From Pedobacter steynii (GTDB taxonomy: Bacteria; Bacteroidota; Bacteroidia; Sphingobacteriales; Sphingobacteriaceae), in assembly GCF_001721645.1 (NCBI RefSeq), contig NZ_CP017141.1:4588001-4652000 (forward strand): a stretch of DNA of 64,000 bases, read 5' to 3'. Made by a program: the position numbers and the translations under genes. Positions 381 to 15,328 of the stretch are shown piece by piece. The notes beneath the pieces are model-generated. The model was not told where the DNA came from. It ran no database searches and worked only from the letters and a program-made list of their open reading frames with translations. The stretch's first letter is position 1; every line of letters starts with the position of its first letter.

Positions 381-1607
381 ATGAATTATAGGGAAATATT
401 AGACCAGTTGAGGTCGCATGTAGCCAACGTATTCCACGCTAAAAGCGATGCCAGACTTATATATCATAACCTAAACCATACCGAGCAGGTCGTAGAGAAT
501 GCAGTGAAAATTGCCAACCATTACCAGCTTTCTGATGAAGACTTTTTCATCGTTACCGCGGCCAGTTGGTTCCATGATCTGGGCTACTTTTTTGACTGCC
601 AGCATCATGAAGCAAGTGGAGCAGGACTGGCAACAGAATTCCTGAAGGAAAAAGGAGTTAAAGCAGAGGTCATCGATAAAGTGGTGAACTGTATCCTGGC
701 TACTAAAATGCCACAAAACCCGGAAGGTCTGCTGGAGCAGATTGTTTGTGATGCCGATCTGTATCATTTGGGAAGTAACAGTTTTAAAGAACGAAACAAA
801 CTGATGCGGAAGGAAGCCGAAGCTTTCTGTAACCGGGTATTGGATAAAGATGAATGGAGATTAAAAACAATCGCCCTTTTTAAAGCGCACCATTACCATA
901 CTGCGTATTGTCAGAATTTGCTGAACGCGAAAAAAGCAGAGAACCTGGCCGATCTGGAACACAAAGCGGAGGAGGCACAAAAGGAGACGGCTCTTATGCC
1001 TGTAGCAGACAAACCGGTATCGCTGGAACCTGAAGTGGCTGCGGAAAGCAAAAAAGATAAAAAGAAAAAGAGCGAGCGGCCGGAAAGGGGAATTGAAACC
1101 ATGTTCCGGATCACTTCTACCAATCACCAGCGATTGAGCGATATGGCCGATAATAAGGCGCACATCATGATCTCTACCAATTCTATCATTTTATCCGTGA
1201 TTCTGAGTATCCTGCTGAGAAAGCTGGAAGATAACCCACACCTGATTATCCCGACCTTAATCCTGTTGGTGATTTGCGTCGTGACCATGGTTTTCTCTAT
1301 CCTGGCTACACGTCCATCCATTCCGGAAGGGGTATTTACCCCGCAAGACATTACCAATAAAAAGGTAAATCTCTTGTTCTTCGGTAACTTTTACCGCATG
1401 AGCCTTCCGGATTATGAAGGTGGAATGATCAAAATGATGGAAGACCGGGATTTCCTTTATGGAAGTCTGATCAAAGATCTTTACTCGCAGGGAGTAGTCC
1501 TTGGCCGCAAATACCGTCTTTTAAGAATTGCCTATAACGTTTTTATGTTCGGGATTGTGATCTCTGTAGTGGCCTTTATCCTGGCGTCATTCCTGGTTAC
1601 CTTATAA
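381..1607 (+). CDS. HD-domain phosphohydrolase fused to a PycTM (Pycsar-effector-type) membrane domain
   Basis: The 408-residue protein has two parts. Residues 1-180 are an HD phosphohydrolase domain, with metal-ligand candidates H33 (NHT), H65-D66 (FHDLGY) and D124/D126 (CDAD). A charged Lys-rich linker spans about 185-235. Residues 240-408 match the PycTM/DUF5706 pattern, with MFRITSTNHQRLSDMADNKA followed by two membrane helices (about 264-281 and 287-309) and a third at 383-407. HD domains hydrolyse phosphate esters, often nucleotides. PycTM is the membrane effector of Pycsar cyclase immunity, but it also occurs outside defence. No cyclase gene is adjacent. The stop codon is one base before the ppk1 ATG, so the two genes are probably translationally coupled, which suggests a nucleotide or polyphosphate-linked role rather than phage defence. 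The substrate is unknown. Confidence 0.8.
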   Translation: MNYREILDQLRSHVANVFHAKSDARLIYHNLNHTEQVVENAVKIANHYQLSDEDFFIVTAASWFHDLGYFFDCQHHEASGAGLATEFLKEKGVKAEVIDKVVNCILATKMPQNPEGLLEQIVCDADLYHLGSNSFKERNKLMRKEAEAFCNRVLDKDEWRLKTIALFKAHHYHTAYCQNLLNAKKAENLADLEHKAEEAQKETALMPVADKPVSLEPEVAAESKKDKKKKSERPERGIETMFRITSTNHQRLSDMADNKAHIMISTNSIILSVILSILLRKLEDNPHLIIPTLILLVICVVTMVFSILATRPSIPEGVFTPQDITNKKVNLLFFGNFYRMSLPDYEGGMIKMMEDRDFLYGSLIKDLYSQGVVLGRKYRLLRIAYNVFMFGIVISVVAFILASFLVTL

Positions 1608-1608
1608 T

Positions 1609-3606
1609 ATGGAGTCTGCTGTTTTTTTTAACCGGGATTTAAGCTGGCTGAGCTTTAATGAGCGTGTGCTGATGGAAGCCTCAAGGCCTGCTGTGCCAAT
1701 CCTGGAACGCATTAAATTTCTTTCTATCTATTCCTCCAATCTGGATGAATTTTACAGAGTGAGGATGCCGGTGCTGATGTGGGATTTTGAACTCGCGAAA
1801 AACAAGATCAACCAGCAGCAGCAAAAGTTTGGCGAGATCATGGTGGAACAGATCCTGCCGGAACTGGAAGCTCAAAAGGTTCATTGGTTATACAATAAAC
1901 CTATTCCTGCCACCATTTCTGATCAGATTTCCGATATTTTCTTCAATGAAGTGCTCGCCTATATCCACTCGGTTTGTATTGACCGGGACCTGACGGATTT
2001 TTTTGCCGAGAATAATAAACTCTACCAGGTGATCATTTTAAGAGATAAAGAAGGGAAAGAACGCCTGGAGTTAATCAGTATTCCTTCGGAAGTCCTGCAG
2101 CGTCTGTATGCCATCCACTTGGGAGAGGAACAGTATGTGGTATTTTTGGAAGACATCATTAAACATAATTTAGCTTACCTCTTTCCTCATGATGTGATTC
2201 ATGGTGCCTATAACCTGAAGATCACCAGAAATGCCGCTTTAAAAATAGGGCAGGAGTATGCGGAAGACATTACCAGTGCCCTGGAAAAGCAACTGGAGGT
2301 GCGTGATTTTGGTTTTGCTACCCGTTTTCTTTATGAACCAGGGATACCTCTTAGAAACTTATACCGCGTAATTCATGCCCTGAACCTGAATAAGGCTGCA
2401 GTGGTAGAAGGTGGAACTTATCATAATTTAAAAGACCTCAATAACTTTCCTTTAGACAGTAAGCAATTCGGATATCCGAAATGGCCGGCTGCCCTGGCGG
2501 AGCGGGTTGCTGAAAAGGATACGCTTTTTAACCATATCCTCCGCAAAGACATCCTGATCAATGTACCTTATCAGAATTACGATCCGGTACTTCGCTTTTT
2601 CAATGAAGCTTCAAATGATGTGTCGGTGGAAGAGATCTTTGTGACCCTTTACCGGGTGGCCAGCAATTCCAGAATTGTCAATGCACTGATGACTGCCGCC
2701 AAAAACGGTAAGAAGGTGGTGGTGCTGGTAGAGCTGAAAGCAAGATTTGATGAAGCAAATAACATCAAATGGGCCAAACAGATGAAAGCTGCAGGGGTGC
2801 GGATTGTTTACAGCAACCTCGACCTGAAGGTACATGCTAAAGTAGGCCTGGTGAAAAGAAATATCGAAGGGGAAACGCAATACCTGGGTTTACTGGCTAC
2901 GGGCAACCTGAATGAAAGCACCGCGAAATTTTACACGGATCATATTTTACTTACTGCCCATCAGCCGATGTTACAGGAGCTCGAGTCTTTATTTGGCTTT
3001 TTAAGCAAGAAAAAGAAAACTCCCGGCCTGGAGGACCAGATCTCTTTTGAGCACCTGCTTGTTGCACAGTTTAACCTGCAAAAAACCTTTCTGGATCTGA
3101 TCCAGAGAGAAATTGACCATGCAAAGGCGGGCCTTCCTTCGGGAATCATCATCAAAATGAACAACCTGGAAGAACAGGTACTCATCGCTAAATTATATGA
3201 AGCTGCTCAGGCAGGAGTGAAAATACAACTCCTCATTCGTGGCATTTGCTGCCTCATTCCCGGGCAAGCAGGATTGAGTGAAAACATTACGGTGAGAAGG
3301 ATTGTGGACCGCTACCTGGAACATGGACGGATCTTTATCTTCCATAATAAGGGGGCAGATGATACCTATCTTGGCTCCGCAGATTGGATGAACAGAAACA
3401 TTTATAGCCGTATTGAGGTATGTTTTCCGTTATATGACGCTGAGTTGAAACGTCTGATTATGGAAATTATTACCTTGCAGCTTCAAGATAATGTGCAGGC
3501 GGTAAATATCAGTTCCACCATGCAGAATGAAGAGATCAGTGCCCTGCCGGCATTGCGCTCTCAGGAAGCCATTTATCAGTTGTTAAAAAGGTTTAACGCT
3601 AATTAA
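1609..3606 (+). CDS. ppk1: Polyphosphate kinase 1
   Basis: This enzyme reversibly transfers the gamma phosphate of ATP onto a polyphosphate chain in the cytoplasm or at the membrane. The 665 residues cover the whole family length. The N domain starts with FFNRDLSWLSFNERVL (residues 6-21). The two phospholipase-D-like catalytic domains show ARFDE (378-382), the phosphorylated histidine in KVHAK (H409), FYTDHILLTA (441-450) and the second active histidine in LEHGRIFIF (H572). The gene follows the HD-PycTM gene after one base and precedes a lipoprotein gene by 12 bp, so it is inside an operon. No key residue seems to be missing. Confidence 0.96.
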   Translation: MESAVFFNRDLSWLSFNERVLMEASRPAVPILERIKFLSIYSSNLDEFYRVRMPVLMWDFELAKNKINQQQQKFGEIMVEQILPELEAQKVHWLYNKPIPATISDQISDIFFNEVLAYIHSVCIDRDLTDFFAENNKLYQVIILRDKEGKERLELISIPSEVLQRLYAIHLGEEQYVVFLEDIIKHNLAYLFPHDVIHGAYNLKITRNAALKIGQEYAEDITSALEKQLEVRDFGFATRFLYEPGIPLRNLYRVIHALNLNKAAVVEGGTYHNLKDLNNFPLDSKQFGYPKWPAALAERVAEKDTLFNHILRKDILINVPYQNYDPVLRFFNEASNDVSVEEIFVTLYRVASNSRIVNALMTAAKNGKKVVVLVELKARFDEANNIKWAKQMKAAGVRIVYSNLDLKVHAKVGLVKRNIEGETQYLGLLATGNLNESTAKFYTDHILLTAHQPMLQELESLFGFLSKKKKTPGLEDQISFEHLLVAQFNLQKTFLDLIQREIDHAKAGLPSGIIIKMNNLEEQVLIAKLYEAAQAGVKIQLLIRGICCLIPGQAGLSENITVRRIVDRYLEHGRIFIFHNKGADDTYLGSADWMNRNIYSRIEVCFPLYDAELKRLIMEIITLQLQDNVQAVNISSTMQNEEISALPALRSQEAIYQLLKRFNAN

Positions 3607-3618
3607 TGAACGTATTTT

Positions 3619-4497
3619 ATGAAAAAAGTCTATACTAAACTATTCTATATTCTTCCGGTTCTGGCACTTTTTGTTTTTTATGCCTGCAAACCCATAGCTT
3701 CCAAATTCAGCAGCCCTGCGGGTTATGACCTGGAGAAACCCGACAAATTCAATATGCCGGAAAGCCTCCTGGAGATCTCGGGGATTACATTTTATAAGGG
3801 ACAGCCGGATACTGTTTATTCGATTCAGGATGAAGATGGAAAAGTATTCCGTCAGAAGTGGGACATTAAAGACCAGAAGAATGTTCGTTTTGCCGCTAAA
3901 GGTGATTATGAAGACCTGGCAATCTTTAAAGAAAAGATCTTTGTTTTGAAAAGTAACGGACACCTTTTTTCTTTCCCTTTTGCAGAAGCCGTTAAGGAAG
4001 ATGCAGAACAGGTGAAACATAATAAAGGATTGGTGCCGAAAGGGGAATACGAAAGCTTATATGCAGACGAGGAAAACAGCAAGGTATATATCTTATGTAA
4101 ATCATGTCCGGTAGATAAAAAGAAGAAAACCGTAACAGGATATGTACTTAACTATCAGTCTGAGATTGACAGCCTGGTTCCTGAAAGCTCTTTCAGCATT
4201 GACCTGGAGCAGATCAAAACAATGAATCCTAAGCTGAAAGCAAGTCTGAGCCCTTCTGCACTAACTAAAAATCCAAAAACCAAAGAATGGTATATTCTGG
4301 CGTCAGCCAATAAGTTGTTATTGGTTGCAGATGAAAACTGGAAGGTGAAAACCATCCACCGCCTGAGCTCCGGACTCTACAATCAGCCGGAGGGAATCGC
4401 CTTCGACAAAGACCTGAACCTGTATATTTCTAACGAGGGGGATGAGCTGACCAATGGCAACATCCTCAAGTTTAAATATACGCCTGCAGGTAAATAG
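3619..4497 (+). CDS. SdiA-regulated-type lipoprotein with predicted beta-propeller
   Basis: The 292-residue product starts with a lipoprotein signal (MKKVYTKLFYILPVLALFVF, then YAC with the lipidated cysteine at 23). The body has repeating strand segments such as ISGITF, DTVYSIQDEDGKVF and QPEGIAFDKDLNLYISNEGD, typical of the SdiA-regulated (YjiK-like) six-bladed propeller family. Such proteins are periplasmic or surface-attached; their biochemical activity is not established. The gene sits 12 bp after ppk1 and 25 bp before the GAF-like gene, so it is probably cotranscribed with both. The family call rests on pattern and on the terminal NEG motif. Confidence 0.7.
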   Translation: MKKVYTKLFYILPVLALFVFYACKPIASKFSSPAGYDLEKPDKFNMPESLLEISGITFYKGQPDTVYSIQDEDGKVFRQKWDIKDQKNVRFAAKGDYEDLAIFKEKIFVLKSNGHLFSFPFAEAVKEDAEQVKHNKGLVPKGEYESLYADEENSKVYILCKSCPVDKKKKTVTGYVLNYQSEIDSLVPESSFSIDLEQIKTMNPKLKASLSPSALTKNPKTKEWYILASANKLLLVADENWKVKTIHRLSSGLYNQPEGIAFDKDLNLYISNEGDELTNGNILKFKYTPAGK

Positions 4498-4522
4498 TAC
4501 TGAAAAATAAATAATACAACAG

Positions 4523-6883
4523 ATGCAAGCGATCACGCTGGATTTAAATAATAGTATTGTTGGAACGGGCGAGAGGCCGGTTGGCGCAGACATAAAGCTG
4601 TCGCTGAGGCCATTTATTGCTTATGTGGAGAACATGGCAAATACGGAGAAAACCGCCAAAATCAATTTTTATAAATACATTCTGGAGCAGTTTAAGCAAT
4701 TCCCTGAATTGCAGGAGCCCATACCAATGGAGAATGTCCAGCGGTACAATGTGCTTTTTGAATTGATCTATACGGCATTATCGCCAATTATAAATGAAGA
4801 GAAAGAGCATTTATGGGCCATTAGTACACCACTGATGCCCTGTTTTCATTATGGAACAAATGCTTTTTATAATGTATTGATGGAGCCCTCCACCTGCACC
4901 TTGAAAGCGGATTTGAGTCTGCCTTCAAAGCTGGAAATGGAAAAAAGCCTCTTGTCAGCATTTTATAACCTGGTGCTCCGCCGCTTTTATAATTTCTCCC
5001 TTACTGCCAATGAGTTTACCGTTAAATCAATTATCGATCCGGAGACAAAACTCCCTAAGTATTATCGTTTAATTATAGATACCAGGTTTCTGGACATTAC
5101 CGCGAATGTGGAAATGCCGGTATATGACCTCAATATTGTGAAAGATTATATTCAGGATGAAACCAATACGATAGACATTTTAACCAAGTTAATTCCACCT
5201 GAAATCTTTACCATAGAAGGGATTTCTATTGTGACCATGGTGGATGTGACCGGTGAATATGTGTTGGAATCGATCAAGAACATCATCATTGAACACCATG
5301 AGTCCAAGAATGTAAGCCATAGTAAAGAAATTGCTACTGCCTTAAAGACCCTTGTGGGAACTGAAAAGCTGGAATTTGGCATGTTACCTTATACTAAGCT
5401 GAACAATAAGCTCCTGGTGAATGAGAAATCAGGTTTTTACAGCAAGCTGATCAAACTGGCCGAAGAAGATGGTTGGAAATATGAGGATGAGTTAAATCTT
5501 ATTGAAGAATACCTGAGCAATCCGCGGACCATGATCTTTCCGGAAATTACAGAGGAAGATCAGGAAAAATATCCGATGCTCCGCCTCCTTTGGGCGAAAG
5601 GAATCAAAGCCTATGGCCTCTTTCCTTTGTACTACAACGCGAAATTGGTAGGATGCCTGGAATTGTATACCGAAGATCCGACCAAATTTAACGGAAGTAC
5701 CCTGACGAAAATTGACCTTGCCTTTCCATTACTGGCGCAGCTATATCAGGATATCATCACTGATTTCAATCAGGAGATCTCGGAAATTGTAACCGATAAA
5801 TTCACGGCATTGCAGCCTTCGGTTGAATGGCGGTTTCATCAGGCGGCATATCGTTATCTACAATCCGGAGGTAAAGCTAGAAATCTGCCTGTTGAACCGG
5901 TTTTCTTTAAAGAGGTACATCCTTTTTATGGGGCGGTAGACATCCGGAATTCCAGTGTGCTCCGTAATATGGCCATCAGGAAGGACTTGTATGTGCATTT
6001 CGAGATCCTGGAAAAAACATTGGATGCAGTGAAAGATAAAGTCTGTCAACTGCAGGATGGAGAAATGCCTCAGCAATATCAAATCTGGAACAAAGAACAG
6101 TTTGAAGAACTTTCAGACCGTGAAATTCTAAAAACTGAAGATTATCTGCAACGCCAGATTCCTTATGCCCTGACTCATTTGATGGAGACTTATCCGGAAC
6201 TTACTGAAACGGTTGATGATTATTTCAGACTCACTGCCGTTGATGGAAAAAGCTATGAACACCGGGACCGTTATGAAAAAAGTCTTCAGATGATCAACCT
6301 GTCGGTCACCAGGCACCTGGATGAGTTTAACAGAGAGATTCAACGCATTTATCCCTGCTATTTTGAGAAATTCAGAACCGATGGGGTAGAGTTTGATATT
6401 TACCTGGGCCGTTCTATCGCTCCGGATAAAGCGTTTTCAGAGGAGATCCTTCATGAGTTCCGCCTGAAACAATTAAAAGTCCTGGCAGAAATTGCCCAGA
6501 CCACCTTTAGTCTGGCGCCTTATTTCTCTTTACCATTGGAAACTACGCAGCTGATTTTCGTGTATGAAAAGCTGATCGACATTAGTTTCAGAATCGATGA
6601 ACAGCGCTTTGATGTGGAAGGAAGTTATAATATCCGATACCAGATGGTGAAGAAAAGGATCGATAAAGCACATATCAAAGACACCACAGAACGCATTACC
6701 CAACCTGGAAAGATCGCAATTGTATACTTTAACAGTTGGGAAGCACATGAATATGTAGGATATATTAAAACTCTTCAGGATATTGGTCTTTTAAATGACG
6801 ACCTTGAGTATCTTGATATTGAGGAACTACAGGGAGTTGAAGGATTAAAAGCCCTCAGAATAGGGGTAACGCTTAAAAATTAA
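4523..6883 (+). CDS. GAF-domain-like cytoplasmic protein of unknown function
   Basis: The product is 786 residues, with no signal peptide or membrane segment. The part around residues 340-410, with GIKAYGLFPLYYNAKLVGCL and a following acidic stretch, has the strand pattern of the second half of a GAF domain, a small-ligand sensing fold. The rest is helical and not recognized. I see no kinase, cyclase, GGDEF or HTH output domain. It lies between the propeller lipoprotein and the kinase-like outer-membrane gene, with gaps of 25 and 8 bp, so it belongs to the ppk1 operon. A role in sensing or scaffolding is possible, but nothing in the sequence shows it. Confidence 0.6.
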   Translation: MQAITLDLNNSIVGTGERPVGADIKLSLRPFIAYVENMANTEKTAKINFYKYILEQFKQFPELQEPIPMENVQRYNVLFELIYTALSPIINEEKEHLWAISTPLMPCFHYGTNAFYNVLMEPSTCTLKADLSLPSKLEMEKSLLSAFYNLVLRRFYNFSLTANEFTVKSIIDPETKLPKYYRLIIDTRFLDITANVEMPVYDLNIVKDYIQDETNTIDILTKLIPPEIFTIEGISIVTMVDVTGEYVLESIKNIIIEHHESKNVSHSKEIATALKTLVGTEKLEFGMLPYTKLNNKLLVNEKSGFYSKLIKLAEEDGWKYEDELNLIEEYLSNPRTMIFPEITEEDQEKYPMLRLLWAKGIKAYGLFPLYYNAKLVGCLELYTEDPTKFNGSTLTKIDLAFPLLAQLYQDIITDFNQEISEIVTDKFTALQPSVEWRFHQAAYRYLQSGGKARNLPVEPVFFKEVHPFYGAVDIRNSSVLRNMAIRKDLYVHFEILEKTLDAVKDKVCQLQDGEMPQQYQIWNKEQFEELSDREILKTEDYLQRQIPYALTHLMETYPELTETVDDYFRLTAVDGKSYEHRDRYEKSLQMINLSVTRHLDEFNREIQRIYPCYFEKFRTDGVEFDIYLGRSIAPDKAFSEEILHEFRLKQLKVLAEIAQTTFSLAPYFSLPLETTQLIFVYEKLIDISFRIDEQRFDVEGSYNIRYQMVKKRIDKAHIKDTTERITQPGKIAIVYFNSWEAHEYVGYIKTLQDIGLLNDDLEYLDIEELQGVEGLKALRIGVTLKN

Positions 6884-6891
6884 AATAAACC

Positions 6892-9510
6892 ATGCGTTTT
6901 AAAAAGGAGCTGCAAGCTGCATTATTAGTAAAACTGGCTCTTGTAGCCATTCCTTCGCCTGGCATTGCACAGCATGTCGGGCAAACGGATTCCATTACAG
7001 TAGCGATTGCACCGGAATATGATAAAGTAGGTGGTTTTCACCGTTTCTGGTTGGGAGAAAGCTATCGTAAAATATGGGCTACCCCTGTGAAATTGAGAAT
7101 CATGGACCTTCAGAAAGAAAAGGGAGGACTTACGATCATTAAACTGGGAGGAGGGATGCAGACCCGTTCCCTGCGTCTGAAAGATGCTGCGGGAAAAGAA
7201 TGGGTGCTGAGAACCGTTCAGAAATATGCCGATAGAAGTCTGCCGGAGAACCTGAGGGCTACCATTGCAAGAGATATTACTCAGGATCAGGTATCTACCA
7301 ACCATCCTTTTGCTTCCCTGATTGTTCCGACATTGGCCGGAGCACTCGACCTCGCACATGCAAAACCCGAAATCGTGTATGTAGGCGATGATCCCGGATT
7401 GGGAGAATACCGTAAGGATTTCGCAAATGCCGCTTATGTGTTTGAAGAAAGGTCTCCTTTTGAAGAGAAAACAGACAATACCGAGAAAGCCCAGAAGAAA
7501 ATCCTGAAAGATAATGATACCCGTGCAGATCAAAAAATGACCCTTAGGGCGCGTTTGCTGGACTTCCTGCTGGGAGATTGGGACAGGCATGAAGACAACT
7601 GGCGCTGGTCTGTAGAGAAAACCAAAGACGGTACCACTTATAGCCCGGTTCCAAGAGACCGCGATAAAGTGTTTTATAAAACTTCAGGCGTTTTCCCATG
7701 GGTATTGACCCATCAGTGGCTAAAATCTCACCTGCAACCTTATTCCCCAACCATCCGGGATGTGGAACATTGGAACTTTAACGAAAGGTATTTTGACCGT
7801 TTCTTCTTAAATGAGCTGACGGAGCAGGACTGGAAAGAGGAAGTGAAGGTAGTACAGTCTAAGATGACCGACGAACTGATTGCTAAATCTTTCAGGGAAA
7901 TGCCGGATCCTATCTTTAAACAGTGTGGAGCGGAGCTGATTGCTAACTTTACTTCAAGAAGAAATCAGCTGGAAACACTGGCTTTGAAATATTATAGGTT
8001 TTTATCTATAAATGTCGATGTGCCTGCTTCAGACAAGACCGAATATTTCGATGTAAAACATCAGGATGATGGAACGGTAAGGCTGCACGTATATAATATT
8101 AAGAAGGATGGAAGTAAAGGACGCCTGTTCTTTGACCGTACTTTTAACCCGGAGGTAACCAAAGAAATCAGGTTATTCGGATTGGGTGGTAAAGATGTTT
8201 TTGATGTTCATGGTAAAGCCAGCTCTCCGATAAAAGTGAGGATGATTGGTGGGGATGAAGAGGATCAGTTTAAGGTAGCAGAGGAGGTCAGCAATAAATC
8301 AGGACTCTTTATTTACGACCGTAAGGACGAAACAAATGAGCTCCCTCAGAAAGGTTTTGCCAAGTTAAGGCTTGCAAAAGATACTGCCGTTAACCAGTTT
8401 AATAAAACCGGATTCCTGTACGACAGGTCTGGGGTTTTATTCGACCTGAACTATAATATTGATCAGGGAGTGCAGATTGGATTGGGCTATATCATCGAAA
8501 AACAAGGATTCAGAAAGTCGCCATATGCTTCAAAACAGGAGTTCTGGGCGCATTATTCTACCGGAAGAAAGTCTTTTATCCTCGATTATGCCGGAGATTT
8601 TAAGAAAGCAATCGGTAACAATGACCTGAAGGTAACGGTAAATATGTTGGGCCCTAATAATTTGAGTAACTTCTTTGGCCTGGGGAACAATACAGATTAT
8701 ATAAAAGATGATGACCATCATGAGGAGAATGAGGAAGAGAACGATAAAGAAGATGGAATTTCTTACTACAGGAACCGGTATAATTATTTAAATGCCAGTC
8801 TGAAACTCAAAAGAGACCTCGATAAATTCTGGAGTGTGGAAGGAGGATTGCTCTTGTCTTATTATGCAAGTAACCGATCGGAGAATGAGGAACGTTTTCT
8901 TTTTGATTATGATTTAGCCAATCCCGGGCAGGATGTATTTTCTAATCGCTTTTATGCGGGACTAACTGCGGGCTGGTCTTATGATACACGCGATCATATT
9001 GCCATTCCTAAAAAAGGAGTGTTCTGGAAAACTACAATTTCTGCGCAGCAACGCGTAACAGGGGAGGATCAGCGCTATGGGATTGTAACTTCGGAATTCC
9101 GTTTTTACCTCAATCCATGGAAATCCGGCCTGGTAATCGCCAACAGAATTGGTGGCGGGACTACAGTTGGTAACCCGGCATTCTTTCAGCACATTCAGCT
9201 GGGCGGAGTAAACAGCCTTCGTGGCTTCAATAGCAGAAGATTTACCGGTCGCACGGGAGCATACCATAACCTGGACCTGCGACTAAAGTTGTTCAATTTC
9301 ACCTCATACCTGGTTCCCGGAACAGTGGGGATGATCGGGTTTAATGATGTGGGCAGAGTCTGGCAACCTGGAGAATCCAGTGGAAGATGGCACCATGGCT
9401 ATGGTGGTGGTTTATACATCATGCCGGGAGATCAGATCCTCATCCAGGGTACATTGGGTTTCTCTAAGGAAGCGACAATGCCCTATTTCTCAGTAGGTTT
9501 CAATTTTTAG
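6892..9510 (+). CDS. Outer-membrane beta-barrel protein with an N-terminal kinase-like domain
   Basis: The 872-residue protein has a signal peptide (cleavage near PGIAQ, residue 27). Residues 80-270 look like a protein-kinase-like fold. They have a glycine-rich loop [12 protein letters not shown] (85-96), a following strand WVLRT (104-108), the catalytic-loop-like [10 protein letters not shown] (228-237), and a metal-site-like PRDRDKVF (254-261), as in HipA/FAM20-type kinases. A beta-rich linker with GGDEEDQF follows. The last 350 or so residues form a BamA/TamA-like surface-antigen barrel, with [15 protein letters not shown] and terminal phenylalanine (YFSVGFNF). The barrel call is firm. The kinase likeness is pattern reading, and periplasmic ATP is absent, so it may be a pseudokinase. 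The gene begins 8 bp after the GAF-like gene. Confidence 0.7.
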
Positions 9511-9592: not shown

Positions 9593-10261
9593 ATGAGATT
9601 ATTAAAAAGCTTTTTGCCCCTTAATTTATTGTTGCTTGGCACGCAGGTGGTAAGCGCTCAATTTAAATTGCCGACACTTCCTTATGCAACCAACGCACTG
9701 GAACCTGCTATTGATAAGCAGACAATGGAAATTCACTACGGTAAACACCATGCTGCCTACGTAAACAACCTGAATGGTGCCTTAAAAACTGCTTCAGCTG
9801 AAGGAAAGTCATTGGCCGAACTGTTGGCACAGGTTTCCAAATACCCTGCTGTAATTAGAAATAATGCCGGTGGTCATTTTAACCACAGCCTCTTCTGGCT
9901 GATCATGACACCTAAACCAAAACCGGTTTCTGCCGGGTTTTTGAAGGAAATTAATGCCAATTTCGGATCAATAGAGAAATTTAAAGCTGCTTTTGCCGAT
10001 TCAGCAGCCAAAAGGTTTGGATCAGGGTGGGCATGGCTGATTGTTCAGAATGGAAAACTGAAGATCAGTACGACAGCGAACCAGGACAATCCTTTAATGG
10101 ACGTGGTAGCAGAGAAAGGGAAACCAATTCTGGCACTGGATGTCTGGGAGCATGCGTATTACCTGAAGTATCAGAATAAACGCCCGGATTATATCAATGC
10201 ATGGTGGACAGTAGTCAACTGGGCAGAGGTAGAGAGAAGGTTTAATGAAGTTAAAAAGTAA
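9593..10261 (+). CDS. Exported superoxide dismutase, Mn/Fe family
   Basis: The 222-residue enzyme converts superoxide to oxygen and hydrogen peroxide. The four metal ligands are visible: H48 (EIHYGKHH), H98 (FNHSLFW), D183 and H187 (DVWEHAYY). GGHFNH before the second ligand favours a manganese or cambialistic enzyme over a strict iron type. Residues 1-22 ([20 protein letters not shown]) form a signal peptide ending SAQ, so the enzyme should act in the periplasm; most bacterial family members are cytoplasmic. It follows the barrel gene by 82 bp and may have its own promoter. A strong terminator follows at 10376. Confidence 0.93.
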
Positions 10262-10375
10262 GCATGTCTGTTCGCAGACGGAAATCCTTGCCCTGAAAAA
10301 GGGCAAATATTTCTAGGTCTGCTCACAGAACGCATACTTTTTTTGGGTGCTAAACCCGGGAGGAGTATAAAAAAA

Positions 10376-10608: not shown

Positions 10609-13600
10609 ATGCGTATGAAATTAAAAATGACCCTTAAAGTATTCATGCTATTCTCTGTATGCGGGGGGCAGATGGGGATGATCAATGCCGTTAATGCCCA
10701 GTCTGTGGTGCAAACAACAGATCGGGTAACGGGGAAAATAACCGACGAAACAGGTGGGGGCCTGCCGGGAGTTTCGGTTACAGTTAAAGGCAAAGGAACT
10801 GCTGTTTCTTCAGATGGATCAGGCAATTACAGCATCAATATTTCCGGGAAGGAGATATTGGTTTTTTCATTTACCGGTTATACCACAAAGGAAGTAGCCG
10901 TAAATGGGACCACCAGAGTTAACGTACAATTGCAGGTGGATCAAAAAGTTTTGGAAGAGATTGTGGTGGTGGGCTATGGGGTTCAGAAGAAGGTAACGGT
11001 TACCGGGTCTGTAGCTTCAATAAAAGGGGACGTACTCAGACAAAGTCCGGCGGCGAATTTAAGTAATGCCATTGCAGGGCGTGTTCCCGGGGTAATTGCT
11101 TCCAATCGGTCCGGAGAGCCGGGCAATGATTTTTCTACTTTACTGATCCGTGGTAAGGGGACATTGAACGACAATAGTCCGCTGATCGTGATTGACGGAG
11201 TTGCCAATAGGGGCGCATTTGAAAGGATTAATCCCGATGATGTAGAAAGTATCAGTGTATTGAAAGATGCTTCCGCTGCTATATACGGTGCTCAGGCTGC
11301 AAATGGTGTTATTTTAATTACCACGAAACGGGGGAAAACCGGAAAGCCGGTCATTACTTATACCGGGAGTTATGGACTTACCCAACCTACACAATTGCCT
11401 AAACTGGTAGATGCCGGGCAGTATGCCACGTATATTAATGAGGTAAATGACCGTTTGGGACAACCTCATCAGTATTCTGATGCAGATGTGCAGAAGTATA
11501 AAGATGGCAGCGACCCTTTGAATTTTCCCAATACCGACTGGTACGATGCGGTATTGAAAGATTTGTCGCCACAATACCGCCATGCCATTAGTCTGAGCGG
11601 TGGAAACGAAAAAACAGATCATTTTATTTCCGGCGAGTATTTAAATCAGGATGGTATTTTTCATAAATCTGCCACCAATTACAAACAATATAACCTGCGC
11701 TCCAATATCGGTTCTCAGGTAACAAACGACCTGAAAGTATCTTTGAATGTTTCGGGAAGGCTCGAGGACAGGCATTATTCTAATTATAGCAGCGGGAGTA
11801 TTTTTGCAGAGGTACTTTCCGCTTATCCTACTTTACCGGCCTATTATCCAAACGGGCTTCCCGGACCAGGACTTGCCGGTGGGCGCAATCCCGTGTTGAT
11901 GGCTTCCGGAGCGACAGGGTATAACAAAACAAAGGATTATTCCCTGATTTCTGATGCCTCATTTCATCTTAAATTGCCTTATGTTACCGAAGGACTTTAC
12001 CTTTCCGGACTTGCAGCCTTTGATTTCCGCTTTCGCAATGGAAAGAAACTGTATGACAACTGGGATGCCTATCGCTATAATAAAACCAGTAATGAATATG
12101 TGAACCTGCGGGATACGGAAGGGCCGATTAACCTCAATGAAGACTTCAGAAATTACCAGCTGCAAACTTATAACCTGAAATTAGGTTATGAAAGACGCTT
12201 TGCGGCCCACCTGATCACTGCATTTGTGGCTTTTGAACAAAGCGAAAACTATGATGAAGGAATCAGTGCCTACCGTACAGGGTACCTGAGCAGTAAGATC
12301 GATCAGATTTTTATTGGAGGGGATAAGGACAAGAACAATGGAAGTGTGGCCTCACAATCTGCACGCAGGAATTTCTTTGGCCGTTTTACGTATGGTTATA
12401 AGGATCGCTATCTGGCAGAGGTTATTTTACGCCATGATGGTTCGTTTAACTTTCCTAAGGGTAAACAATGGGGAACTTTTCCCGGTATCTCCCTGGGATG
12501 GAGAATTTCTGAAGAGGACTTCTTTAAGCAGCAGGTCAGCTTTGTAAACCAGTTGAAAATCAAGGCTTCATGGGGTAAGTTAGGGAATGATAAAATTGCG
12601 CCTTACCAGAATTTGCAACAATATTACCTGGATGGGGGATTCTATTTCGGCCCGGATAGCGAGAAACAACAGGGCTTGTCGGCAGGCGTGGCCCCAAATC
12701 CGGGAGTGACCTGGGAAGTGGCAAATAATATGAATATCGGGATAGAATCTGCTTTCTTTAACGGTGAGCTGAGCATCAATGCCGATTATTTTATTTCTAA
12801 ACGTAACCGCATTCTGATTGCCCGCAATGCTTCTGTTCCTTCCAGCACCGGATTGAGTGGCAAGTTGCCCGTAGAAAATATTGGAAAAGTAGACAACAGG
12901 GGCCTGGAGCTGGAACTGATGTACAGGCACAGCATCAATAAGGATTTTTCTTACCAGGTTGGTGGGAACTATACCTATACCAGGAACAAGGTGGTATTCA
13001 TGGACGAGGCAGCGAATGTTCCCGAATGGCAGAAAATTCAGGGACATTCCATGGATTCCTGGCTGGTATATAAGAGTACAGGGATTTATAAGACACAGGC
13101 AGAAATTGATAATTCTGTACATCTGGCTGGTACAAAACCTGGTGATATTGGCTATGAAGACATTAATGGAGATAAAAAAATCACTTCTGATGATCGGGTC
13201 CGCATATTTGAAACGCCAACTCCCAGCAGTGTTTTCGCATTGACTGCCGGTTTTCAGTATAAAGGATTTGGATTGGACATCCTTTTGCAGGGGCAGGGGA
13301 AAGCAAGGCAATTGATCCTGCCACAGCAGGGAAATGCCATTACTCCTCCGGTTTGGTTATTTGAAGACCGTTGGAGCGTAAATAACCCTGAGGGCACATA
13401 TCCAGCTTCTTTTGACCGGAATGATCCGGTAAACAACAGGTATTCAGATTTCTGGCTTCGCAATGCTGCATTTTTAAGGCTCAAAAATGTAGAAATCTCT
13501 TACACCTTCCCGAAAACATTCATCTCCCGTTTAAGCCTGCAAAACCTACGTGTTTTTGTAAATGGAAGCAATCTGCTGGTGATGAGCAAAATTAAGGACT

Positions 13601-13683
13601 ACGATCCTGAGCTCAATGCGGTGACCGGAAGCTATTACCCGCAAACCAGAATCATGAGTGCCGGAATCAATATTTCTCTTTAA
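10609..13683 (+). CDS. SusC/RagA-family TonB-linked outer-membrane transporter
   Basis: The 1024-residue protein imports oligosaccharide or another large nutrient across the outer membrane with TonB energy. It has a signal peptide ending near NAVNAQS (residues 25-31), a carboxypeptidase-regulatory-like domain (about 40-118) with GGGLPGVSVTVKGKGTAVSS, and the TonB-box region EEIVVVGYG (about 119-127). The plug has LSNAIAGRVPGV, PLIVIDGV and ISVLKDASAAIYGAQAANGV, and is followed by a long beta-barrel. A second in-frame ATG two codons later is an equally possible start. The SusD gene follows after 22 bp. A GntR regulator and a glycosidase downstream point to a carbohydrate ligand. Confidence 0.95.
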   Translation: MRMKLKMTLKVFMLFSVCGGQMGMINAVNAQSVVQTTDRVTGKITDETGGGLPGVSVTVKGKGTAVSSDGSGNYSINISGKEILVFSFTGYTTKEVAVNGTTRVNVQLQVDQKVLEEIVVVGYGVQKKVTVTGSVASIKGDVLRQSPAANLSNAIAGRVPGVIASNRSGEPGNDFSTLLIRGKGTLNDNSPLIVIDGVANRGAFERINPDDVESISVLKDASAAIYGAQAANGVILITTKRGKTGKPVITYTGSYGLTQPTQLPKLVDAGQYATYINEVNDRLGQPHQYSDADVQKYKDGSDPLNFPNTDWYDAVLKDLSPQYRHAISLSGGNEKTDHFISGEYLNQDGIFHKSATNYKQYNLRSNIGSQVTNDLKVSLNVSGRLEDRHYSNYSSGSIFAEVLSAYPTLPAYYPNGLPGPGLAGGRNPVLMASGATGYNKTKDYSLISDASFHLKLPYVTEGLYLSGLAAFDFRFRNGKKLYDNWDAYRYNKTSNEYVNLRDTEGPINLNEDFRNYQLQTYNLKLGYERRFAAHLITAFVAFEQSENYDEGISAYRTGYLSSKIDQIFIGGDKDKNNGSVASQSARRNFFGRFTYGYKDRYLAEVILRHDGSFNFPKGKQWGTFPGISLGWRISEEDFFKQQVSFVNQLKIKASWGKLGNDKIAPYQNLQQYYLDGGFYFGPDSEKQQGLSAGVAPNPGVTWEVANNMNIGIESAFFNGELSINADYFISKRNRILIARNASVPSSTGLSGKLPVENIGKVDNRGLELELMYRHSINKDFSYQVGGNYTYTRNKVVFMDEAANVPEWQKIQGHSMDSWLVYKSTGIYKTQAEIDNSVHLAGTKPGDIGYEDINGDKKITSDDRVRIFETPTPSSVFALTAGFQYKGFGLDILLQGQGKARQLILPQQGNAITPPVWLFEDRWSVNNPEGTYPASFDRNDPVNNRYSDFWLRNAAFLRLKNVEISYTFPKTFISRLSLQNLRVFVNGSNLLVMSKIKDYDPELNAVTGSYYPQTRIMSAGINISL

Positions 13684-13705
13684 TCCTAAATGAAAAAATA
13701 AGAAA

Positions 13706-15328
13706 ATGAAAACTATATCTATATGCTTTTTCAGCCTGCTGCTTTTGTTGAACATCAGCTCCTGCAAAAAGGGGTTTCTGGAAAGAAAACCGCTGGATAC
13801 CTATTCAGAGCAGGATGTCTGGACAGATCTGAACCTGATACAGACCTTTATCAATTCTAAATACCGCGCTTTGCCACATTTTTATAACTGGGGCGCTGCA
13901 GTGAACGGGCCGGGATTGTCTGCTGCCTCTGATGAAGGTTATTCCAAATTTAATTATGAAAGTGTCTTTTTATGGAATAAAGGAGAAGTAAACCCGGATA
14001 ACCTTTCTATGGACAGCTGGTCGGCCGACTATGGCTTTATCAGGGATTGCAATTCTTTTTTTCTGAAGATCGCGGAAGTAAAAGGGGAGGAGGCGATAAA
14101 GAACAGGATGATCGGGGAAATGAAGTTTATCAGGGCATGGTGCTACTTTAACCTTATTTCCCGCTATGGCGGCGTACCCCTGATTACAAAAGTCTACCAG
14201 CTTTCTGATCCTGATTTTTTAACCTTAAGAAACTCCTACGACGAATGCATGACCTTTGTGATCAGGGAGCTGGACGATGCCATTGCCTTATTACCTGATA
14301 GTTATACCGGGAAAGACCTGGGAAGGATCACCAAAGGAGCGGTGCTGGCCTTGAAATCCAGGGCTTTGTTATATGCGGCAAGTCCTTTGAATAACCCATC
14401 CAACAACAGGGCCAAATGGCAGGCCGCAGCAGATGCCACCAAAGCCATGCTGGATGCGCCGGGATTTTCCCTTTACCAGGGCGCAGACTACAAGCAGCTG
14501 TTTCTGGAGAAGTTTAATCCCGAAATCATCCTGTCTTATGGGATGAACGGAACCGATTGGGAATCTTCTCTGGATGTGATGATTGCGCCAAATGGATACC
14601 ATGGCTGGTCGGTGTACGCCCCTTCTCAGAACCTGGTAGATGATTTCGAAATGAAAAATGGAAAGATGATCACTGATCCGGCTTCCGGATACGATCCCGC
14701 GAATCCTTATCAAAACAGGGATCCGCGTTTCAATGCCACCATTATTTATAATGGAACACCGTTTAAAGGCAGGAATGCGGAATATTTTAAGGGTGGGCTT
14801 GATAGCCCGCAGAGTCCTGTAGAAAACTGGAATGCCAGTCTGACGGGCTATAACTGGCGTAAATACGCAGATGAATCCCATGATATGGATGCTACAGGAA
14901 GTACACAGAACTGGGTGATTTTTCGTCTGGCAGAAATCTATTTGAATTATGCCGAAGCCCAGTATGAACTGGGAAATGAAGCCGAGGCAAGAAATTACCT
15001 GAACCTCGTTCGCAGTAGGTCGTCTGTAAATATGCCTCCTGTTACTGCAGGGTCAACTGCTCTTTTGCAGGCCATCAGGCATGAACGTGAAATCGAACTG
15101 TGCTTCGAAGGTCATCGTTTTTATGATGTACGCAGGTGGAAAATTGCAATGGTTACCGAGAATAAACCACTTCGGGGAGTAAACATTACTAAAAATGCTA
15201 ACGGCTCCCTGAGCTATGATTATTTCAATCTGCAGCCAAGGAAATTCCTGGAAGCCAATTATTTATTTCCTATTCCTGCTTATGAAATGCAAAAGAATAC
15301 ATTACTGATCCAGAACCCCGGATATTAA
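13706..15328 (+). CDS. SusD/RagB-family surface nutrient-binding lipoprotein
   Basis: The product has 540 residues and a lipoprotein signal with NISSC (lipidated cysteine at 20). KKGFLERKPLDTYSEQDVW follows, the usual N-terminus of SusD proteins. Later blocks include MKFIRAWCYFNLISRYGGVPLI and, near the end, a C-terminal block with RHEREIELCFEGHRFYDVRRW. SusD caps the SusC barrel at the cell surface and captures glycan. It is cotranscribed with the SusC gene 22 bp upstream, and a terminator follows right after the stop. Confidence 0.95.
   Translation: MKTISICFFSLLLLLNISSCKKGFLERKPLDTYSEQDVWTDLNLIQTFINSKYRALPHFYNWGAAVNGPGLSAASDEGYSKFNYESVFLWNKGEVNPDNLSMDSWSADYGFIRDCNSFFLKIAEVKGEEAIKNRMIGEMKFIRAWCYFNLISRYGGVPLITKVYQLSDPDFLTLRNSYDECMTFVIRELDDAIALLPDSYTGKDLGRITKGAVLALKSRALLYAASPLNNPSNNRAKWQAAADATKAMLDAPGFSLYQGADYKQLFLEKFNPEIILSYGMNGTDWESSLDVMIAPNGYHGWSVYAPSQNLVDDFEMKNGKMITDPASGYDPANPYQNRDPRFNATIIYNGTPFKGRNAEYFKGGLDSPQSPVENWNASLTGYNWRKYADESHDMDATGSTQNWVIFRLAEIYLNYAEAQYELGNEAEARNYLNLVRSRSSVNMPPVTAGSTALLQAIRHEREIELCFEGHRFYDVRRWKIAMVTENKPLRGVNITKNANGSLSYDYFNLQPRKFLEANYLFPIPAYEMQKNTLLIQNPGY

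Follow-up and report, generated by a model that had tools for sequence, protein, structure and literature searches.

A predicted protein-kinase-like domain joined to a BamA/TamA-like outer-membrane barrel in Pedobacter steynii, with phosphatase-bearing relatives

What might a kinase-like domain do at the bacterial outer membrane, beside a periplasm in which ATP is not expected? The question is raised by an open reading frame of Pedobacter steynii (6892-9510, plus strand, ATG start) in the window, here the whole stretch of 64,000 nucleotides that was analysed. The initial annotation had described its 872-aa product as an exported protein combining kinase-like motifs with a surface-antigen barrel. 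Both motifs were located in the frame, the barrel was matched to Omp85, and the predicted order of the product is signal peptide, kinase-like domain, all-beta region and 16-strand BamA/TamA-like barrel, as follows.

6892..6969, plus strand: predicted signal peptide over about the first 26 residues, with ...GIAQ at its end, from the hydrophobic N-terminus
7087..8010, plus strand: predicted kinase-like (PKL) domain, about residues 66-373, from the AlphaFold2 model and structural matches
7573..7602, plus strand: ten-residue GDWDRH-type motif, putative catalytic loop (D231), residues 228-237, from conservation and hhalign placement onto CotH WD
7651..7674, plus strand: PRDRDKVF, putative metal-binding loop (D256, D258), residues 254-261, from conservation and hhalign placement onto CotH DxD
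8011..8331, plus strand: all-beta region, residues 374-480, from the secondary structure of the models, without a Pfam match
8425..9501, plus strand: predicted 16-strand outer-membrane barrel, residues 512-870, from the full-length model, Foldseek and Pfam Omp85
9217..9228, plus strand: LRGF, resembling the Omp85 loop-6 motif, residues 776-779, from conservation in alignment A3

The fold and the barrel are of known kinds, and the kinase-like domain is without a match in Pfam or NCBIfam, the N-terminal ~500 residues giving zero matches to either. No fusion of such a domain to a barrel was described in the titles or abstract openings of the open-access papers that the literature searches returned. 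A minus-strand frame overlapping the kinase domain (6925-7590, 221 aa) was presumed to be a shadow frame and not a gene in its own right.

An AlphaFold2 model of residues 29-481, built with 62 aligned sequences (mean pLDDT 91.5, pTM 0.91), has a two-lobed protein-kinase-like fold, which was also recognised by Foldseek and VIA-align. The region around residues 80-270, where such a fold had been proposed from the motifs, was modelled and fold-searched, and the kinase fold is there; the structural matches cover model residues 38-345, equivalent to protein residues 66-373. Foldseek against the PDB returned RIO2 (E 1.1e-5), CtkA (3.7e-5), PI4K-II-alpha (4.4e-5) and 7vkb, a bacterial kinase complex by its title (5.7e-4), with low TM-scores of 0.29-0.36 by query over the 11 rows at E <= 0.001 and a best value by target of 0.53, for CtkA. 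VIA-align 2, applied to Foldseek's best 1000 chains, gave PI4K-II-beta (Z 14.3, rmsd 4.4, 259 aligned) and CotH (Z 14.0, rmsd 4.0, 242 aligned), followed by CtkA (Z 12.8), HipA (Z 11.0) and HipT (8ezr, Z 10.6). By title, its best 50 rows were kinases, HipA proteins or kinase-inhibitor entries with few exceptions, one of them 4jw1 (LepB fragment). The earlier comparison with HipA therefore holds at the level of fold, below PI4K-II and CotH; FAM20C was absent among the matches listed by either program, which carries no exclusion. Since PI4K-II and CotH are tied, the fold does not decide between a lipid kinase and a protein kinase.

Ties to known kinases by sequence profile are weak. Aligned with hhalign against 18 CotH domains, the family gave E 0.001 but a probability of only 21%, with GDWDRH...PRDRD placed onto the WD...DxD of CotH, and alignment A2 against CotH gave E 0.0046 and 7.5%. 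The CotH profile (PF08757) matched 0 of the 29 members of alignment A1 at E <= 1, and a CotH match was absent in the P. steynii genome itself. HipA_C (PF07804) does not serve as a profile for the family, matching one of the 29 members at E 0.21, and two hhalign runs against it gave E 0.011 and 0.18. The best Pfam result on these 29 members was DUF1598 (E 0.0014, two members), below cut-off where the score was seen. From profile searches of the PDB, CtkA, found with A2 (E 0.063), did not recur with A1, and two EF-hand proteins found with A1 (E 0.078 and 0.23) were taken as chance. According to PMC7821199, CotH of B. subtilis is a distant relative of Fam20C and is inactive as D228Q or D251A, so that both Asp are needed. 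Judged by their spacing, 23 residues in CotH and 25 here, these two Asp probably correspond to D231 and D256 in the two motifs of the family.

Conservation was counted in 75 kinase-domain sequences that were retrieved by whole-protein similarity or lay in stretches around such matches; loci retrieved by a pattern over the GDWDRH-type motif were excluded. In this set, not chosen by motif, D229 and D256 are each kept in 74 of 75 sequences, D258 and E185 in 73, K111 in 72 (two of the other three being gaps), and D231 and H233 in 71. The two motifs of the initial annotation are thus no chance occurrence, their four Asp being kept in 71-74 of the 75. K111, D231 and D256/D258 are candidates for the N-lobe Lys, the catalytic Asp and the metal-binding Asp, roles that were placed by profile alignment, and N236, a possible metal ligand, is Gln in 58/75 and Asn in 15/75. 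Conservation is not confined to the motifs: R356, P338, G266, P139 and D132, all outside them, are kept in 38/38 of the rows below 70% identity, above D231.

One alternative, which we judge unlikely, is an exported pseudokinase in which the fold would be kept to bind nucleotide, polyphosphate or a glycan and would gate or feed the barrel without phosphotransfer. Such a role would suit a compartment in which ATP is not expected, the prevalence of Gln at the N236 position and the degenerate members that lack D231 (L064:4436, L066:5469, L067:3476 and L069:4642), some copies probably being inactive because of this loss. However, even in the 38 rows below 70% identity D256 is kept in 37, D258 and E185 in 36, K111 in 35 and D231 in 34, as is H233. 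That the putative catalytic residues are conserved speaks for an active enzyme rather than a pseudokinase, and catalysis by the domain appears likely. The pseudokinase suggested by the initial annotation is accordingly less likely for most members, given that 71-74 of the 75 sequences retain the putative catalytic Asp and Lys, though D231 is missing from four.

The C-terminal half of the protein is an Omp85 superfamily barrel by both structure and profile. Pfam Omp85 matched residues 617-838 above cut-off (E 1.3e-14), NCBIfam Omp85_fam matched residues 518-872 below its cut-off (E 7.7e-36), and a Pfam ShlB match was also below cut-off. The full-length model (pLDDT 89.9, pTM 0.84) has 16 barrel strands at residues 512-870, and Foldseek matched this part to BamA and TamA. 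LRGF at 776-779, which resembles the Omp85 loop-6 motif, has an invariant G778 and a nearly invariant L776 in alignment A3. POTRA domains have a beta-alpha-alpha-beta-beta pattern; none was matched by Pfam, and residues 374-480, where they might be expected, are all beta in the models.

That the N-terminal part is exported, as first proposed, agrees with the signal peptide predicted by hydrophobicity, the maximum 10-residue mean of the N-terminus being 2.78 vs 0.63-1.27 for the HD-PycTM, ppk1 and 786-aa proteins encoded upstream. By a crude test, a hydrophobic N-terminal segment is present in 65 of the 73 family ORFs that begin with Met (two of the 75 ORFs were excluded for having none in the available stretch), and several of the eight that failed resemble weaker signal peptides or mis-set starts. 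The usual topology of Omp85 proteins has the N-terminus in the periplasm. Because a signal peptide, an Omp85 barrel and an LRGF loop occur together, the kinase-like domain would by this topology face the periplasm; its exposure at the cell surface is a possible alternative.

The same features could describe a TamA/BamA-type assembly or lipid-transfer factor with the kinase-like domain as a client-binding module in place of POTRA. Although the barrel, the LRGF motif and the absence of a POTRA-like region would all fit, we hold this to be quite unlikely, as the kinase-like domain is conserved in the manner of an active site. Two properties of the relatives, namely that a phosphatase-type domain fused to many of them keeps its motifs and that kinase domains occur in short frames without the barrel (judged by frame length, at 9 of the 111 places), also count against it.

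Matches, including those to the barrel alone, were found in 38 of 59 genomes in the relatives search and in 147 of 247 in a sample of the phylum. The kinase domain itself was matched at no fewer than 111 places in at least 90 of these 247 genomes. The 111 places listed comprise 69 long frames, 33 of kinase plus barrel length and 9 shorter, with classes assigned by open-frame length and weaker matches outside these uncounted. Four long examples were scanned, and PF00149 was above cut-off in three (L017, L036, L149) and 0.1 bit below it in L138; an Omp85 match was not seen for L036 in that scan. Of 38 long relatives, 33 carry the complete purple-acid-phosphatase-type set of motifs, GDxG, GDxxY, GNHD, HH and GHxH; relatives with such an N-terminal phosphatase-type domain had not been available to the initial annotation. 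This domain is absent from the P. steynii 872-aa protein, and a separate phosphatase gene was not found in its genome at E 0.001 with the phosphatase part of L017 as query, in a search run with no positive control.

In a tree built by a quick method, the 872-aa protein falls in a clade of 28 kinase plus barrel rows (support 98), separate from the phosphatase-bearing clades, with Pedobacter ginsengisoli as its nearest named row. The P. steynii genome holds a second kinase plus barrel gene (G000:C1:37361-39832; L060:7356-9887, minus strand), whose 843-aa product is without a phosphatase domain and lies in a mixed clade with phosphatase-bearing relatives. One contig of the pattern-retrieved set (L129) carries a Chlorobiota label, and the other named records are Bacteroidota. 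Among five plasmid records with a match, four genes are annotated as hypothetical protein and one place has no feature. On a Parabacteroides distasonis plasmid, a distant kinase-like relative (L201:5641-8100, 25% identity, annotated hypothetical protein) has sugar-metabolism genes on one side and an ABC transporter permease on the other. Adjoining kinase-like genes without a barrel occur at L066:2129-7148 and L064:4436-7775, and in each locus one gene has its DWDRH replaced by DWSRR and may encode a pseudokinase next to copies that look active.

In P. steynii the gene is preceded by four others.

381..1607, plus strand: protein with HD and PycTM (PF18967) domains, opening the cluster, both Pfam matches above cut-off (PycTM E 3.4e-36, HD E 2.8e-5)
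1609..3606, plus strand: ppk1, polyphosphate kinase 1, TIGR03705 E 6.3e-188, 626 bits vs a cut-off of 466
3619..4497, plus strand: propeller-type (SdiA-regulated) protein with a lipoprotein-like N-terminus, PF06977 E 7e-6, above cut-off
4523..6883, plus strand: 786-aa protein, tentatively GAF-like, for which neither Pfam nor NCBIfam gave a credible match

The five genes (381-9510) share a strand and are separated by 1, 12, 25 and 8 bases, for which reasons they probably form one transcript. Scans gave 17 promoter-like sites vs 22.2 in shuffles and 20 terminator-like sites vs 10.4, including one on the plus strand at 10288-10306, beyond the superoxide dismutase gene; the extent of the transcript is not settled by the scan. 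This Fe/Mn superoxide dismutase (9593-10261, directly downstream) is probably exported, because its N-terminus resembles a signal peptide, and a SusC/SusD-type outer-membrane pair lies further downstream (10609-15328). A second ppk1, with 40% identity to that of the cluster, is found elsewhere in the genome (G000:C1:140594-142561).

Across 15 orthologous loci of the genus, of about 20 kb each, ppk1 and PycTM are each present in 12 and the propeller and 786-aa genes each in 13. L215 and L216 have none of the four neighbours, L206 is without ppk1, and L214 stops about where PycTM would be expected. Between the propeller and 786-aa genes, L208 and L214 have a phosphatase-kinase-barrel arrangement, and L204 (~6043) has a phosphatase domain alone with the kinase-barrel part not adjoining, which suggests that the fused protein was lost or split there. 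Because these three loci carry phosphatase arrangements at this position, P. steynii has probably lost a phosphatase-kinase-barrel copy from it.

Over the phylum the steady neighbour is PycTM, linked to the kinase-like domain in at least 67 of 90 genomes, vs at least 10 of 90 for ppk1. Among the matches listed, PycTM lies within 12 kb of 58/69 long, 12/33 kinase plus barrel and 0/9 short places, counted down to E 3.6e-33; with G273, where a weaker-scoring, broken PycTM lies some 1.3 kb away from the kinase gene, 58/69 would become 59. Within the same distance ppk1 was found at a minimum of 4 long, 6 kinase plus barrel and 1 short place (from 47 places, the further listed matches being checked by eye with no more links), and the propeller gene at 22 of 111 (13 long, 9 kinase plus barrel, 0 short). 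For a 4 Mb genome and a reach of 12 kb to each side, chance linkage is estimated by arithmetic at below 1% per gene copy. In many flavobacterial-type genomes the PycTM match spans the C-terminal half of the query only, so that this neighbour does not everywhere include the HD domain. PycTM is named for the effector of Pycsar, a phage-defence system, and its occurrence here as a fusion to HD, within a chromosomal cluster that is conserved, points to a function other than defence.

The initial annotation had placed the gene in a ppk1 operon and offered polyphosphate as donor. The link to ppk1 holds in the genus, where the gene is in the same cluster in 12 of 15 loci, but in the phylum sample a linked ppk1 was found in no more than a minority of genomes (at least 10 of 90), and we have cut back a polyphosphate account of the whole family. 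Polyphosphate as donor stays a speculative idea, open to test. A kinase that uses polyphosphate in place of ATP, made by PPK1 and reaching the envelope, strikes us as improbable. It would explain ppk1 in the cluster and within 12 kb of the family elsewhere in the phylum, and all ten linked genomes show two or more ppk1 matches, some possibly pieces, because of which the linked ppk1 may be an extra, specialised copy. Against it, among the matches listed ppk1 was located close to a minority of the family, and PPK1 is taken to be a cytoplasmic enzyme.

The reading we prefer, and think probable on balance, is an active, metal-dependent envelope phosphotransferase on the periplasmic side of the outer membrane, paired with a phosphatase in relatives. 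The protein would be exported and its TamA/BamA-like barrel inserted in the outer membrane, holding the protein-kinase-like domain on the periplasmic side, where it would phosphorylate an envelope protein, glycan or lipid in a metal-dependent reaction. In many relatives the purple-acid-phosphatase-type domain of the same chain may make this a kinase-phosphatase pair at the outer membrane, with the two domains presumably opposing each other. The system may be tied to polyphosphate through the adjoining ppk1 in the genus Pedobacter, and, over a large part of the phylum, to a membrane protein of the HD-PycTM or PycTM type. The donor could be ATP, if it reaches the periplasm, or polyphosphate, or some other compound. 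A fuller scheme, an extracytoplasmic phosphorylation machine of the Bacteroidota in which an outer-membrane kinase and phosphatase family would be powered by PPK1 polyphosphate, with HD-PycTM as its link to the inner membrane, is a long shot. With a conserved outer-membrane kinase-like domain across the phylum, often with a phosphatase-type domain on the chain and in some genera beside ppk1, regulated periplasmic phosphorylation and its donor become testable, and a large set of proteins, including the four annotated plasmid copies now named hypothetical protein, would gain a lead to function.

Among known systems, CotH (PF08757; PDB 5jda, 5jd9) shares the atypical kinase fold and has a motif pair onto which a profile alignment of low probability sets that of the family, whereas the present protein is exported and joined to an outer-membrane barrel, its loop reads PRDRD, and its 29 aligned members lack a PF08757 match. 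Type II PI4K lipid kinases have the top VIA-align Z (14.3, tied with CotH) but only 11% identity to the domain, and they are eukaryotic and without a barrel. HipA/HipT and CtkA resemble it in fold, CtkA also by its weak sequence match (E 0.063), but the HipA_C profile matches just the one member (E 0.21), and HipA is a cytoplasmic toxin. The FAM20 secretory-pathway kinases have a kinase fold and work outside the cytosol; the matches listed do not include FAM20C, which says nothing against a relation. BamA and TamA have a similar 16-strand barrel, but here the N-terminal domain is kinase-like and a POTRA-like region is absent. The patatin-barrel proteins PlpD and FplA, in which an N-terminal enzyme is fused to an Omp85 barrel, have the same arrangement, and differ in that the enzyme domain of the present protein is kinase-like.
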